From NCBI GenBank assembly GCA_030645735.1, contig JAUSNP010000002.1, positions 1 through 39,999 of the forward strand: a stretch of 39,999 nt of DNA. Direction: 5' to 3'. A program made the position numbers and the translations under genes. This document shows, in pieces, positions 2,492-6,601 of the stretch (positions are counted from its first letter, which is position 1; each line of letters opens with the position of its first letter). This stretch comes from Candidatus Moraniibacteriota bacterium. GTDB lineage: Bacteria; Patescibacteriota; Minisyncoccia; Moranbacterales; UBA2206. The notes below the pieces were generated by a model, which did no database searches, was not told the origin of the DNA, and worked only from the letters and a program-made list of their open reading frames with translations.

Positions 2492-3187
2492 CTACCGCCT
2501 TATTCCCATCTTCCCGAAATGTTTCTCGATTTTTTTCTGTATTTTTTCTAGATCAATTGTTTGACCCTTAGTGATTTTTTTCAAGTTTGGATCCAATATT
2601 TTTTGCTCTTCACGATATTCCTGTAGAAAATAATTTTCAGCGCCATCAATCCATTTAGCAATTTCATCAAAATCTTTTTCACTATGCAAGCCTGGCACAA
2701 CCGTGGTACGAAATTCATAGGGAATCTTGCTGTGCATAATCAAATTCACACTCAAACGGATTCGGTCCTTGTCCACTTTTGACCCAGTGGTTTTGTCATA
2801 ATTTTCCAAGGAACTCTTGATGTCCATGGCGATATAGTCCACCAACTTTTGATCAATTATTTTTTTCAAAACATCTGGGCGTGTGCCGTTGGAATCGAGC
2901 TTCACCAAAAAGCCCATCTTTTTTATCTTCTGAATAAATTCAATAATGTCCGGTTGAATAGTCGGTTCGCCACCAGTGATGCAAACTCCTTCCAACTTGC
3001 CCACTCGTCTAGAGAGAAATTCAAAAAATTCTTTTTCCGATTCCTCATTGTGCGCCAAACGCAAATCAACCAGCTCTGGATTGTGGCAAAAGGGACAGCG
3101 AAAACTACAACCAAGTGTAAAGACTGTCGTTGCAATTTTCCCTGGATAATCGAGCAGGGTCAATTTTTGAAAACCACCAAGTATCAT
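2492..3187 (-). CDS. nrdG: anaerobic ribonucleotide reductase activating enzyme (radical SAM)
   Basis: NrdG uses a [4Fe-4S] cluster and S-adenosylmethionine to create the glycyl radical of class III ribonucleotide reductase. The 231-residue protein has the radical SAM signature CxxxCxxC (CSFRCPFC, about residues 27-34) and the SAM-binding 'TGGEP' motif (about 96-100), with the short radical SAM core of the family. It lies 354 bp after the glycyl-radical-domain gene and in the same direction as nrdD and nrdR. The gap holds a terminator-like hairpin and repeats, so it may have its own promoter. Its substrate here should be the glycine in the separate small protein at 3542-3805. Confidence 0.93.
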   Translation of the reverse strand: MILGGFQKLTLLDYPGKIATTVFTLGCSFRCPFCHNPELVDLRLAHNEESEKEFFEFLSRRVGKLEGVCITGGEPTIQPDIIEFIQKIKKMGFLVKLDSNGTRPDVLKKIIDQKLVDYIAMDIKSSLENYDKTTGSKVDKDRIRLSVNLIMHSKIPYEFRTTVVPGLHSEKDFDEIAKWIDGAENYFLQEYREEQKILDPNLKKITKGQTIDLEKIQKKIEKHFGKMGIRR

Positions 3188-3541: not shown

Positions 3542-3805
3542 TTAGCAACCACAAGCTGAGCCGCTAACCACAAATTCCATTCGATCTGCAAATTCTGCTT
3601 GTTTACCCTTATTCCATTGTTGCACTGGTCGGATATAGCCCACTACGCGAGAATATACTTCGGCTTTTTGGAAATTCTCCAAAGCTGAATTAGCCTCATG
3701 ACAAGTTTTGCATTTCACAAATGTTTCTTGTCCAACTTTGTAGGGCATGTATTCGTCATTGCACTCCAATGTTTTTCCACAGTCGTGGCATTTATAAGTT
3801 TTCAT
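3542..3805 (-). CDS. stand-alone glycyl radical domain of class III ribonucleotide reductase
   Basis: This 87-residue protein matches the C-terminal end of NrdD. The stretch AEVYSRVVGYIRPVQQWNKG (48-67) holds the RVxGY glycyl radical site, with Gly56 as the predicted radical residue, then a 'GKQAEFADR' tail. Before it is a zinc-ribbon-like pair CHDC (6-9) and CKTC (32-35). It ends SGSACGC. The NrdD body upstream (3904-6108) lacks any RVxGY motif, and about 98 AT-rich non-coding bases separate the two. The sequence therefore shows a split enzyme with the radical domain supplied in trans. YfiD/GrcA, a spare glycyl domain for pyruvate formate-lyase, is a known parallel. Function in trans is inferred. 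Confidence 0.85.
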   Translation of the reverse strand: MKTYKCHDCGKTLECNDEYMPYKVGQETFVKCKTCHEANSALENFQKAEVYSRVVGYIRPVQQWNKGKQAEFADRMEFVVSGSACGC

Positions 3806-3903
3806 CTTTTTGCTTTCTGATCCGACGTTATCAAAAACTTCGAATCGAGAAATGTTTTATTTTTATTTATATTGAAAAAATTTAGATTGCCTCAAGTCCT
3901 TAC

Positions 3904-6108
3904 TTAGTCTTCCATCACAACTTTCAGATACACAGTGCTACTTTGCTCTGCCTTACACTTTGGACAAACCGCATGCTCGCCATTCAAATAACCATGCACT
4001 GGGCAGATACTGAAGGTTGGGGTGAGCGTGAAGTATGGCAAGGAATAATTCTCAGCAATTTTTCTAACCAAATTCTTAGTTGTCTCAATGTCCAAAACTC
4101 TTTCTCCCAAAAATCCATGCAACACTGTTCCGCCGGTATATTTGGTTTGAATGTTATCTTGCAAGTCCAATGCTTCAAAAATATCTTCTGTGAATGACAC
4201 TGGCAATTGAGAAGAATTAGTATAATATGGCGCTGAATCCTGCTCTCGCACAGCCTTGTCGTTGGCAAACAATGTATCCGGGAATCTCTTTTTGTCTAGC
4301 AGTGCTAGGCGGGTTCCAGTTCCTTCACCAGGAGACGCTTCGAGATTATACATATTGCCAGTTTCAGTTTGATATTTCACCATCCTATCTCGCATATGCA
4401 CCAAAACATCTTCGGCAAATTTTTGTCCTTCTTTGGTGGTGATGTCCTTGCCAATCAAATTTAGCAAAGCTTCATTCATACCGATAAGTCCGATAGTTGA
4501 AAAATGGTTGGCCCAATATTCATTGCGACGCATCTTGATAGCTTCCAAGTATACCTTGGTGTATGGATACAATCCTTTGTCAGTTAGGCTTTCCACCATT
4601 TTTCTTTTTGTCTCCAAACTATCCTTAGCCAGATCCATCAAGTGATCTAATTGCTGATAAAACTCTTTCTTGTTTTTCGAGGTATATCCCAATCTCGGCA
4701 TATTGATAGTTACCACTCCAATTGAACCAGTCAATGGGTTGGCTCCAAACAGCCCGCCACCACGCTTGTGCAATTCTCGATTATCTAGTCGTAAACGGCA
4801 ACACATTGAGCGCGCATCATCTGGGTCCATATCTGAATTGATGAAGTTAGCAAAATATGGAATACCGTATTTAGCAGTCATTTCCCAAATCGCATCAAAG
4901 CGCTTATCTTCCCAATCGAAATTCTTGTCGATGTTGTAGGTTGGGATTGGGAAAGTGAAAATTCTGCCATCCGCATCGCCTTCTGTCATTACTTCGGCAA
5001 AGGCGCGATTAATCATATTCATCTCCTCTTGGAAATCGCCATATTTTTCATTCTGTGGCACACCACCAATGATGACGGTTTCATTTTTGAGATTTTTTGG
5101 CGCTACGATGTCCAAAGTAATATTGGAAAATGGAGTTTGAAATCCAACACGAGTAGAAACATTCATATTGAACACAAAGGATTGAATTTCTTGTTTCACT
5201 TTGGCATAGTTCAATTTGTCATGGCGTACAAATGGAGCCAACAAAGTATCAAAGTTTGAAAAAGCTTGTGCTCCAGCCACCTCGCCTTGCAAAGTGTAAA
5301 TGAAATTCACCATTTGTCCCAAAATTGAACCAAGATGTTTAGCTGGCTTGCAAGCCACTTTGCCCGCCACACCAGTGAACCCACGACGGATCAAATCTTG
5401 CAAATCCCAACCGCAACAATAGGCAGCTACCAATTGCAAGTCATGAATATGAAAATCTCCACCTTCATGCGCATCACGGATTGCTTTGGTATACACGCGA
5501 TTCATCCAATAATTGGAACTCACAATTGAAGCAATGTAATTATTGAGTCCTTGCAAAGAATAGGCCATATTGGCGTTCTCTTTCACTTTCCAGTCGATTT
5601 CTTGAATATATTTGTCCACCAGATCAACTGCTTCTTTCAATGACTCTTCCGTTTCACGAATTTTTCGGTGTTGTTCACGATACAAGATATAGGCTTTGGC
5701 AGTTTCATCAAAATCCAAAATCATTAAAACTTTTTCCACTAGATCTTGTACCTCTTCGATTTCTGGAATAAAACCTTTTTTATAACTCTTGCTCAACATC
5801 TGCGCCACTTTGGTCGCAACTTTTTGCGCATCCCTCTCACTACCTTCACCTGTTTCAGCAAAAGCTTTCATCACGGCTTTAGCGATTTTTTTCGAATCAA
5901 AGGACACTACCTTTCCACTGCGCTTAACCACTTTCATAATTTCGTCTGCCTTTTTAGCTGCTACCGCTTTGGCAACAACTTTCTTAGTAACCACTTTTTT
6001 TGCGACTGTCTTTTTCGCAACGACTTTTTTCACCACAGCTTTCTTGGATGTCACCTTTTTTTCCCCAACTTTCTTTCCCCCATTTTTGTTTTTGATTTTT
6101 GCCATCAT
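3904..6108 (-). CDS. nrdD: anaerobic ribonucleoside-triphosphate reductase, catalytic body lacking the glycyl radical site
   Basis: Reduces ribonucleoside triphosphates to deoxy forms under anaerobic conditions. The 734-residue protein has a very basic Lys/Val/Ala tail (about 1-55), an ATP-cone (about 57-150) for allosteric control, and the NrdD barrel. Likely catalytic cysteines are in the 'AYCCGW' (near 231) and 'SMCCRLRLD' motifs. A C-terminal zinc site CPVH...CPKC is followed only by a short tail ending VVMED, so the usual RVxGY radical loop is missing and is found on the next gene. It starts 40 bp after nrdR. Two ATGs (6108, 6105) are possible starts. The basic tail resembles that of HisS in this window. 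Confidence 0.93.
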   Translation of the reverse strand: MMAKIKNKNGGKKVGEKKVTSKKAVVKKVVAKKTVAKKVVTKKVVAKAVAAKKADEIMKVVKRSGKVVSFDSKKIAKAVMKAFAETGEGSERDAQKVATKVAQMLSKSYKKGFIPEIEEVQDLVEKVLMILDFDETAKAYILYREQHRKIRETEESLKEAVDLVDKYIQEIDWKVKENANMAYSLQGLNNYIASIVSSNYWMNRVYTKAIRDAHEGGDFHIHDLQLVAAYCCGWDLQDLIRRGFTGVAGKVACKPAKHLGSILGQMVNFIYTLQGEVAGAQAFSNFDTLLAPFVRHDKLNYAKVKQEIQSFVFNMNVSTRVGFQTPFSNITLDIVAPKNLKNETVIIGGVPQNEKYGDFQEEMNMINRAFAEVMTEGDADGRIFTFPIPTYNIDKNFDWEDKRFDAIWEMTAKYGIPYFANFINSDMDPDDARSMCCRLRLDNRELHKRGGGLFGANPLTGSIGVVTINMPRLGYTSKNKKEFYQQLDHLMDLAKDSLETKRKMVESLTDKGLYPYTKVYLEAIKMRRNEYWANHFSTIGLIGMNEALLNLIGKDITTKEGQKFAEDVLVHMRDRMVKYQTETGNMYNLEASPGEGTGTRLALLDKKRFPDTLFANDKAVREQDSAPYYTNSSQLPVSFTEDIFEALDLQDNIQTKYTGGTVLHGFLGERVLDIETTKNLVRKIAENYSLPYFTLTPTFSICPVHGYLNGEHAVCPKCKAEQSSTVYLKVVMED

Positions 6109-6148: not shown

Positions 6149-6601
6149 TTAATTGTTGTCTAGCATGTCCAGCTCTTTTTTGAAACTCTCTACACTGCCG
6201 AAAGATTTGTAGACACTAGCAAATCGCACATAGGCTACTTCATCAAACTCTTTCATTTTCTTGAGAACTATCTTGCCAATCTCTTTGGTGGTCACTTCTG
6301 TTTTTTCTAGAGACTGAATGGTGTATTCAATATCACCCAGCAGTTTGATTATTTTTTCTTCTGTAACCGGCCTTTTGATGAGTGCACGACGGATACCAGT
6401 TTCAATCTTGGATTTGTCATATTCCGTCTTCTCGCCGTTCTTCTTCACCACCGTCAGGCGCAACAATTCAATTTCTTCATAGGTCGAAAATCTAGATTCA
6501 CATTTGTTACATTCGCGTCTTCTTCGAGTGATTTTGCCTTCGTTAGTATCGCGTGAATCAACCACTTTTGTTTCTGCGTTATTACAGAAAGGACAATTCA
6601 T
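6149..6601 (-). CDS. nrdR: NrdR transcriptional repressor
   Basis: NrdR senses ATP/dATP and represses ribonucleotide reductase genes. The 150-residue protein is full length. It has an N-terminal zinc ribbon (CPFC at 3-6 and CNKC near 31-34) with the basic 'RRRREC' stretch, then an ATP-cone (about 49-140). It is the first gene of the nrd operon and lies downstream of a palindromic NrdR-box-like site (6693-6708), so it probably controls its own operon. Confidence 0.95.
   Translation of the reverse strand: MNCPFCNNAETKVVDSRDTNEGKITRRRRECNKCESRFSTYEEIELLRLTVVKKNGEKTEYDKSKIETGIRRALIKRPVTEEKIIKLLGDIEYTIQSLEKTEVTTKEIGKIVLKKMKEFDEVAYVRFASVYKSFGSVESFKKELDMLDNN

Follow-up and report, generated by a model that had tools for sequence, protein, structure and literature searches.

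Small separate proteins that copy an enzyme's own glycyl-radical segment are known from both cells and phage, in YfiD/GrcA of E. coli and Y06I of phage T4. Each can replace a lost C-terminal radical segment, and YfiD rescues pyruvate formate-lyase (PFL) that has been cut by oxygen; only these two have been validated as spare parts, both for PFL, and equivalents for other enzymes are speculation (PMC8683613). In class III ribonucleotide reductase (RNR), an NrdG-type activase puts the radical on a glycine of NrdD, from which it moves to a finger-loop cysteine, and oxygen cuts the glycyl-radical chain at the radical glycine (PMC3019208, PMC2795772). The radical glycine of the known class III enzymes lies in the same chain (PMC2795772, PMC9669993), in a domain that is mobile in the Prevotella copri enzyme and is expected to move as a rigid body (PMC11226230). 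Two-chain RNRs are known in other classes. The split class II enzyme NrdJa/NrdJb (cited in PMC9669993) also has C-terminal domains on a second chain, but these are other domains, and the enzyme uses adenosylcobalamin and no glycyl radical. Class I RNR likewise keeps a stable radical on a separate subunit, NrdB beside NrdA, a likeness in that respect only, since NrdB carries a tyrosyl or metal radical, is ferritin-like and oxygen-dependent, and is unrelated to the protein described below. Searches of the open-access literature turned up no description of a split class III enzyme.

The locus analysed here belongs to a Candidatus Moraniibacteriota genome of 965 kb (97.7% complete) and shares with the class III RNRs of P. 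copri, phage T4 and Thermotoga maritima the catalytic subunit, the ATP-cone, the MCCR motif, the metal site and an NrdG-type activase, but has its radical glycine on a separate 87-aa protein. The sequence evidence makes it very probable that NrdD and this protein constitute one class III RNR, with an obligate, trans-acting radical subunit derived from an NrdD spare part. The small protein would, like YfiD/GrcA and Y06I, replace a lost C-terminal radical segment, serving NrdD where YfiD/GrcA serves PFL. The first-pass annotation had proposed it as the NrdD counterpart of YfiD/GrcA, and that comparison proved stronger than first put: it is a small separate protein duplicating its partner's radical segment, and many relatives carry it beside a complete NrdD, a genuine spare-part state. 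By sequence it falls outside the GrcA family, with no match to PF01228 or a GrcA model in Pfam or NCBIfam up to E = 1. Unlike YfiD/GrcA, it has the sequence of the NrdD C-terminus, often with a CxxC...CxxC start or a length of only ~45 residues, and whereas YfiD/GrcA is a spare, the stand-alone NrdD radical protein is often the only copy. The split enzyme appears to work as YfiD/GrcA does while standing apart from that family in sequence.

The NrdD body and its small neighbour

Within the window, the whole stretch of 39,999 nucleotides analysed, nrdR, nrdD, the 87-aa gene and nrdG2 form one row on the minus strand (Table 1). Of the named relatives found, Candidatus Moranbacteria GW2011_GWA2_39_41 is the nearest; its small protein is 97% identical.

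Table 1. Features of the split class III RNR locus, in window coordinates
Feature	Coordinates	Strand	Basis
nrdR, RNR transcriptional repressor	6149..6601	-	PF22811 and PF03477
nrdD body (734 aa): catalytic subunit of a class III RNR, glycyl-radical loop absent	3904..6108	-	PF13597, NF006126, PDB folds, dN/dS
ATP-cone, NrdD residues 58-148	5665..5937	-	PF03477, 85 bits
MCCR finger loop, residues 435-438, catalytic cysteine pair	4795..4806	-	Invariant in 26 aligned NrdDs
NrdD C-terminal metal site C702-P-V-H705 ... C715-P-K-C718, on the body	3955..4005	-	Aligned NrdDs
Short divergent NrdD tail past CPKC, KAEQSSTVYLKVVMED	3904..3951	-	Compared with relatives' CPKCVIEQKTEVYSRVVGYIRPV
98-bp intergenic gap	3806..3903	-	29% GC, stops in the NrdD frame
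87-aa stand-alone glycyl-radical protein	3542..3805	-	PF13597 510-562, dN/dS, predicted structure
CxxC...CxxC ribbon-like start of the 87-aa protein: C6, C9, C32, C35	3701..3790	-	Invariant in alignments
RVVGY radical loop of the 87-aa protein, residues 53-57, Gly56	3635..3649	-	Aligned relatives
nrdG2, radical SAM activase	2492..3187	-	TIGR02495, 220 bits, above cut-off

The NrdD body matches PF13597 over profile positions 1-536 of 562 (610 bits) and NF006126/PRK08270 up to position 658 of 684 (1035 bits). Because the PF13597 match stops at 536, the final 26 profile positions, including the glycyl-radical loop, are absent from NrdD, and RVxGY was not found anywhere in the body. The class III barrel and ATP-cone are present, as indicated by PF13597, PF03477 and fold matches: the body model (pLDDT 74) retrieved the NrdDs of P. 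copri, S. thermophilus, T. maritima and T4 with a best E of 5.7e-31, the best PDB folds being the NrdD structures 8p28, 8p23, 9d3x, 4u3e and 1h7b. The cysteine of the first barrel strand, C231, is as invariant as the MCCR finger loop, the meaning of which is taken from PMC9669993. MCCR occurs in 52 of the 54 bodies in which no intact in-cis loop was scored; the exceptions are one without a detected motif and one MGCR of another NrdD type. In the metal site, C702, C715 and C718 are invariant and H705 nearly so among aligned NrdDs. Profiles and alignments agree with the first-pass description of a body that has the ATP-cone, the catalytic cysteine regions and CPVH...CPKC and no RVxGY. The tail KAEQSSTVYLKVVMED, disordered in the predicted structure (pLDDT <50), is probably a remnant of TEVYSRVVGYI. 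At its N-terminus (window 5944-6108) the body carries a Lys/Ala/Val-rich, AKKVVAKK-like stretch of ~55 residues with a histone-H1-like Pfam match below cut-off, and similar Lys-rich tails occur in some relatives.

The 87-aa protein matches the ends of the same models only, PF13597 at 510-562 (47 bits, cut-off 26.2) and NF006126 at 643-682, and was correctly described at first pass as a ribbon-like start followed by RVVGY. Its radical glycine is residue 56 (codon 3638-3640); R53, V55 and G56 are invariant in 28 relatives and Y57 nearly so, and the four ribbon cysteines do not vary among aligned relatives. The ribbon is absent from about half of the stand-alone proteins, so CxxC...CxxC is not a defining part, and ribbonless forms shrink to ~45 residues (L077, L100, L320). 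The predicted structure (pLDDT 77, pTM 0.48) places a strand-loop-strand-helix around Gly56; a fold search with it gave no NrdD and just weak zinc-ribbon matches (E >0.05), and a PDB sequence search with the protein gave zinc-finger and cytochrome matches only. At the other end, at least two cysteines occur in the last 8 residues of 25/66 stand-alone proteins, compared with 3/63 intact NrdD tails; in the 87-aa gene this region lies at 3542-3553. By analogy with the tails of class I and II RNRs, the terminal cysteine pair might act as a redox shuttle.

No second nrdD, the complete copy that the first-pass annotation had kept in view, was found in the genome, where PF13597 matches nrdD and the 87-aa gene only. 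The class I/II large subunit (PF02867) and other glycyl-radical enzymes (PF01228, PF02901) gave no match, and the sole deoxynucleoside-kinase-like match falls below its family cut-off, leaving no dNK match above cut-off. With one NrdD and no PF02867, PF01228 or PF02901, the truncated NrdD is the only RNR found and the only candidate partner found for the 87-aa protein. The radical loop missing from NrdD is encoded elsewhere in the genome, at Gly56, with the activase NrdG2 nearby. The pair recurs in a relative with a 96.6% identical small protein and in many further genomes, which excludes chance.

Recurrence of the split and decay of the in-cis loop

Three states were distinguished: a complete NrdD alone (state A), a complete NrdD plus the small protein (state B), and a truncated NrdD plus the small protein (state C). 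The state-B small protein has a CxxC...CxxC part followed by a repeat of the NrdD C-terminal TEVYSRVVGYIRPVxQWNxGKxxEF. The 55 genomes surveyed in the family and order include 16 in state C, 19 in state B and 15 in state A, so that a separate RVxGY protein accompanies 16/16 truncated and 19/34 complete NrdDs (Fisher p 0.0009, uncorrected for kinship). NrdD was present in 70 of 287 genomes drawn evenly across the phylum, and the split was verified in 36 of the 70, a count that leaves out G206, whose tail is masked; the split is thus present in about half of the sampled Patescibacteria having class III RNR. The search of relatives proposed at first pass, for NrdDs without RVxGY beside a short RVxGY protein, accordingly recovered the arrangement in dozens of genomes, and its presence in many independent assemblies dismisses the assembly error that had been considered.

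Split pairs also occur in Bipolaricaulota/Acetothermia (L160, L167, L172, L176) and in one Desulfuromonadaceae genome (L162). Across all classified loci, a stand-alone protein is present for 53/53 NrdDs without an intact loop and for 27/63 intact ones, the latter count omitting G299, an intact NrdD of another type. Complete NrdDs with a small protein of near-identical segment comprise 18 linked and 9 unlinked cases. The other NrdD type, marked by a GYGSVNHPVDRDPVCGF tail (L087/L088, L091/L092, L084/L085), occurs split in G211 and G163, where a ~150-aa RRITGY protein is encoded elsewhere in the genome, and as a complete NrdD plus an RRITGY protein in G299. This looks like an independent second origin. 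A third, divergent NrdD (L079, in G069) has a tail without RVxGY and is followed by a 77-aa RVVGY protein. Separately, NrdD frames of 1000-1900 aa with an interrupted match (L067, L075, L133; G293, G219, G259, G381, G407) are consistent with inteins.

In Desulfobacterales and their kin the in-cis loop has decayed in place, to RVVRY (L305), GVVKY (L303, L264), GVVKL (L263), GVIPY (L265) and GVMPY (L304), while L269 and L270 have lost the arginine and the QWNxGK motif and kept the glycine. Genomes with decayed loops carry an intact CEVYSRVVGYLRPVxQWN protein on another contig, and within one order a stand-alone protein is present in 5/5 of them, compared with 8/59 other NrdD genomes (p 0.0002). 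On a tree of 112 NrdD bodies, no fewer than 12 changes between the intact and lost states are required. Well-supported branches force 8 of these, and the count does not separate gain from loss. Judged from the remnants, namely CEIYSRVL followed by a stop (G053, L057), STVYLKVV in the window and the decayed loops, loss would be the usual direction. In independent pairs the stand-alone protein goes with loop loss and never the opposite (sign test, median p 0.06, few informative pairs). Because sampling for the tree was partly aimed at split cases, proportions are drawn from the 55-relative, 287-genome and single-order surveys and not from the tree.

Both proteins are under strong purifying selection. 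Compared with the nearest relative, G006, the small gene shows 14 synonymous and 3 nonsynonymous changes, a dN/dS of 0.042; the truncated NrdD body gives 0.024. Across 17 state-B genomes, likeness between the two radical segments is 82% within a genome and 73% between genomes (0/20000 permutations), a pattern expected of copies that fit one and the same partner and undergo homogenisation. Identical codons number 290/454 in the state-B segment pairs, against 220 expected from codon use, and reach 29/30 in the G030 pair; this likeness is consistent with gene conversion or with repeated duplication, and with the two segments being used interchangeably.

Proposed mechanism and competing explanations

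In the proposed two-protein enzyme, NrdG2 would put the radical on Gly56 of the small protein, which would dock into the barrel of the truncated NrdD at its open end; there, next to the MCCR finger loop, Gly56 would stand in for the glycine missing in cis, and catalysis would then proceed as in an ordinary NrdD. At its origin the radical-domain copy may have been a spare part accompanying a complete NrdD, as YfiD/GrcA is for PFL, and the in-cis loop would then have been lost or decayed repeatedly because the spare part sufficed, making the trans protein obligatory. A complete NrdD that oxygen has cut is similar to the truncated body, so a spare part could easily have become an obligate subunit. 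With docking in trans, oxygen damage would cost the small piece only, and the likely benefit is that oxygen would destroy a ~10-kDa piece and not the 82-kDa enzyme.

It is hardly conceivable that frameshifting, readthrough of stop codons, an intron or protein splicing instead joins the two pieces into an ordinary enzyme, even though split phage RNR genes usually result from introns or inteins (PMC3653736) and the two genes share a frame in a few relatives (G003, G013). The gap has 29% GC, compared with 40% for the window, and contains stop codons in the NrdD frame, which bears out its first-pass description as AT-rich, non-coding and not a simple frameshift. No intein was seen at the break, no Rfam intron lies in the gap, and neither an intervening element nor a joinable reading frame was present; the tail of the body is diverged, not interrupted. 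Among relatives, the frame relation, gap length and gap sequence differ and several stops stand in the gap, the genes are unlinked in Desulfobacterales and in the RRITGY-type cases, and a complete NrdD coexists with the small gene in close relatives. Long open frames that might have represented fused genes (such as one of 842 aa in G003) are, on direct reading, separate same-frame ORFs divided by stops, so no natural fusion was found. A search for an RNA element gave only a sub-threshold microRNA match, outside the gap, which was taken as chance.

Were the truncated NrdD a decaying pseudogene, with the small protein a mere repair part or accessory, deoxynucleotides would have to come from the host or the surroundings, which would suit Patescibacteria in that they are often host-dependent and many of the sampled genomes have no NrdD match at all; it would also suit an NrdD that lacks a part needed for catalysis. 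Such decay is very improbable given the low dN/dS of the body and its invariant catalytic motifs, the one-strand row from nrdR to nrdG2, the lack of a dNK match above cut-off in the genome, and a truncated state that is old and common to diverged clades. It is likewise most unlikely that the small protein acts as a decoy or regulator, competing for NrdG or obstructing the barrel of NrdD, with the radical located elsewhere, because truncated and decayed NrdDs are without any other RVxGY and the stand-alone protein always retains the radical glycine and its neighbouring residues; in principle, a stand-alone protein encoded next to a complete NrdD might compete with the loop in cis. A class III RNR with its radical subunit in trans would offer a clean two-component system for studies of glycine-cysteine radical transfer, and may let tiny-genome, oxygen-exposed bacteria keep an oxygen-sensitive enzyme running cheaply.

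Stand-alone radical proteins in viruses

The stand-alone protein, in 59 distinct sequences, was found in 71/80 of the viral loci fetched, with no NrdD in the locus. In 21 whole viral records, including ANMV-1, it is the only PF13597 match, although the records may be fragments, and the search of these records gave no NrdG2 above cut-off. The ANMV-1 gene (L262, 4354-4788, AJP62049.1), read as an oxygen-sensitive ribonucleotide reductase in PMC4372165, encodes a 145-aa product consisting of the radical-carrier part only, and the rest of the 38-kb record gave no NrdD. On this reading the short viral genes that carry a ribonucleotide reductase annotation, that of ANMV-1 among them, encode radical-carrier proteins.

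Recurrence across phyla together with solo copies in viruses suggests that cells use the small protein as a cheap, replaceable radical carrier. A class III RNR with a separate, exchangeable subunit is likely to be widespread, obligate in about half of the class III-bearing Patescibacteria sampled and in some other phyla, a spare elsewhere, and apparently supplied by viruses to the NrdD of their hosts. One viral contig (L208, G364) carries two stand-alone radical-carrier genes ~10 kb apart.
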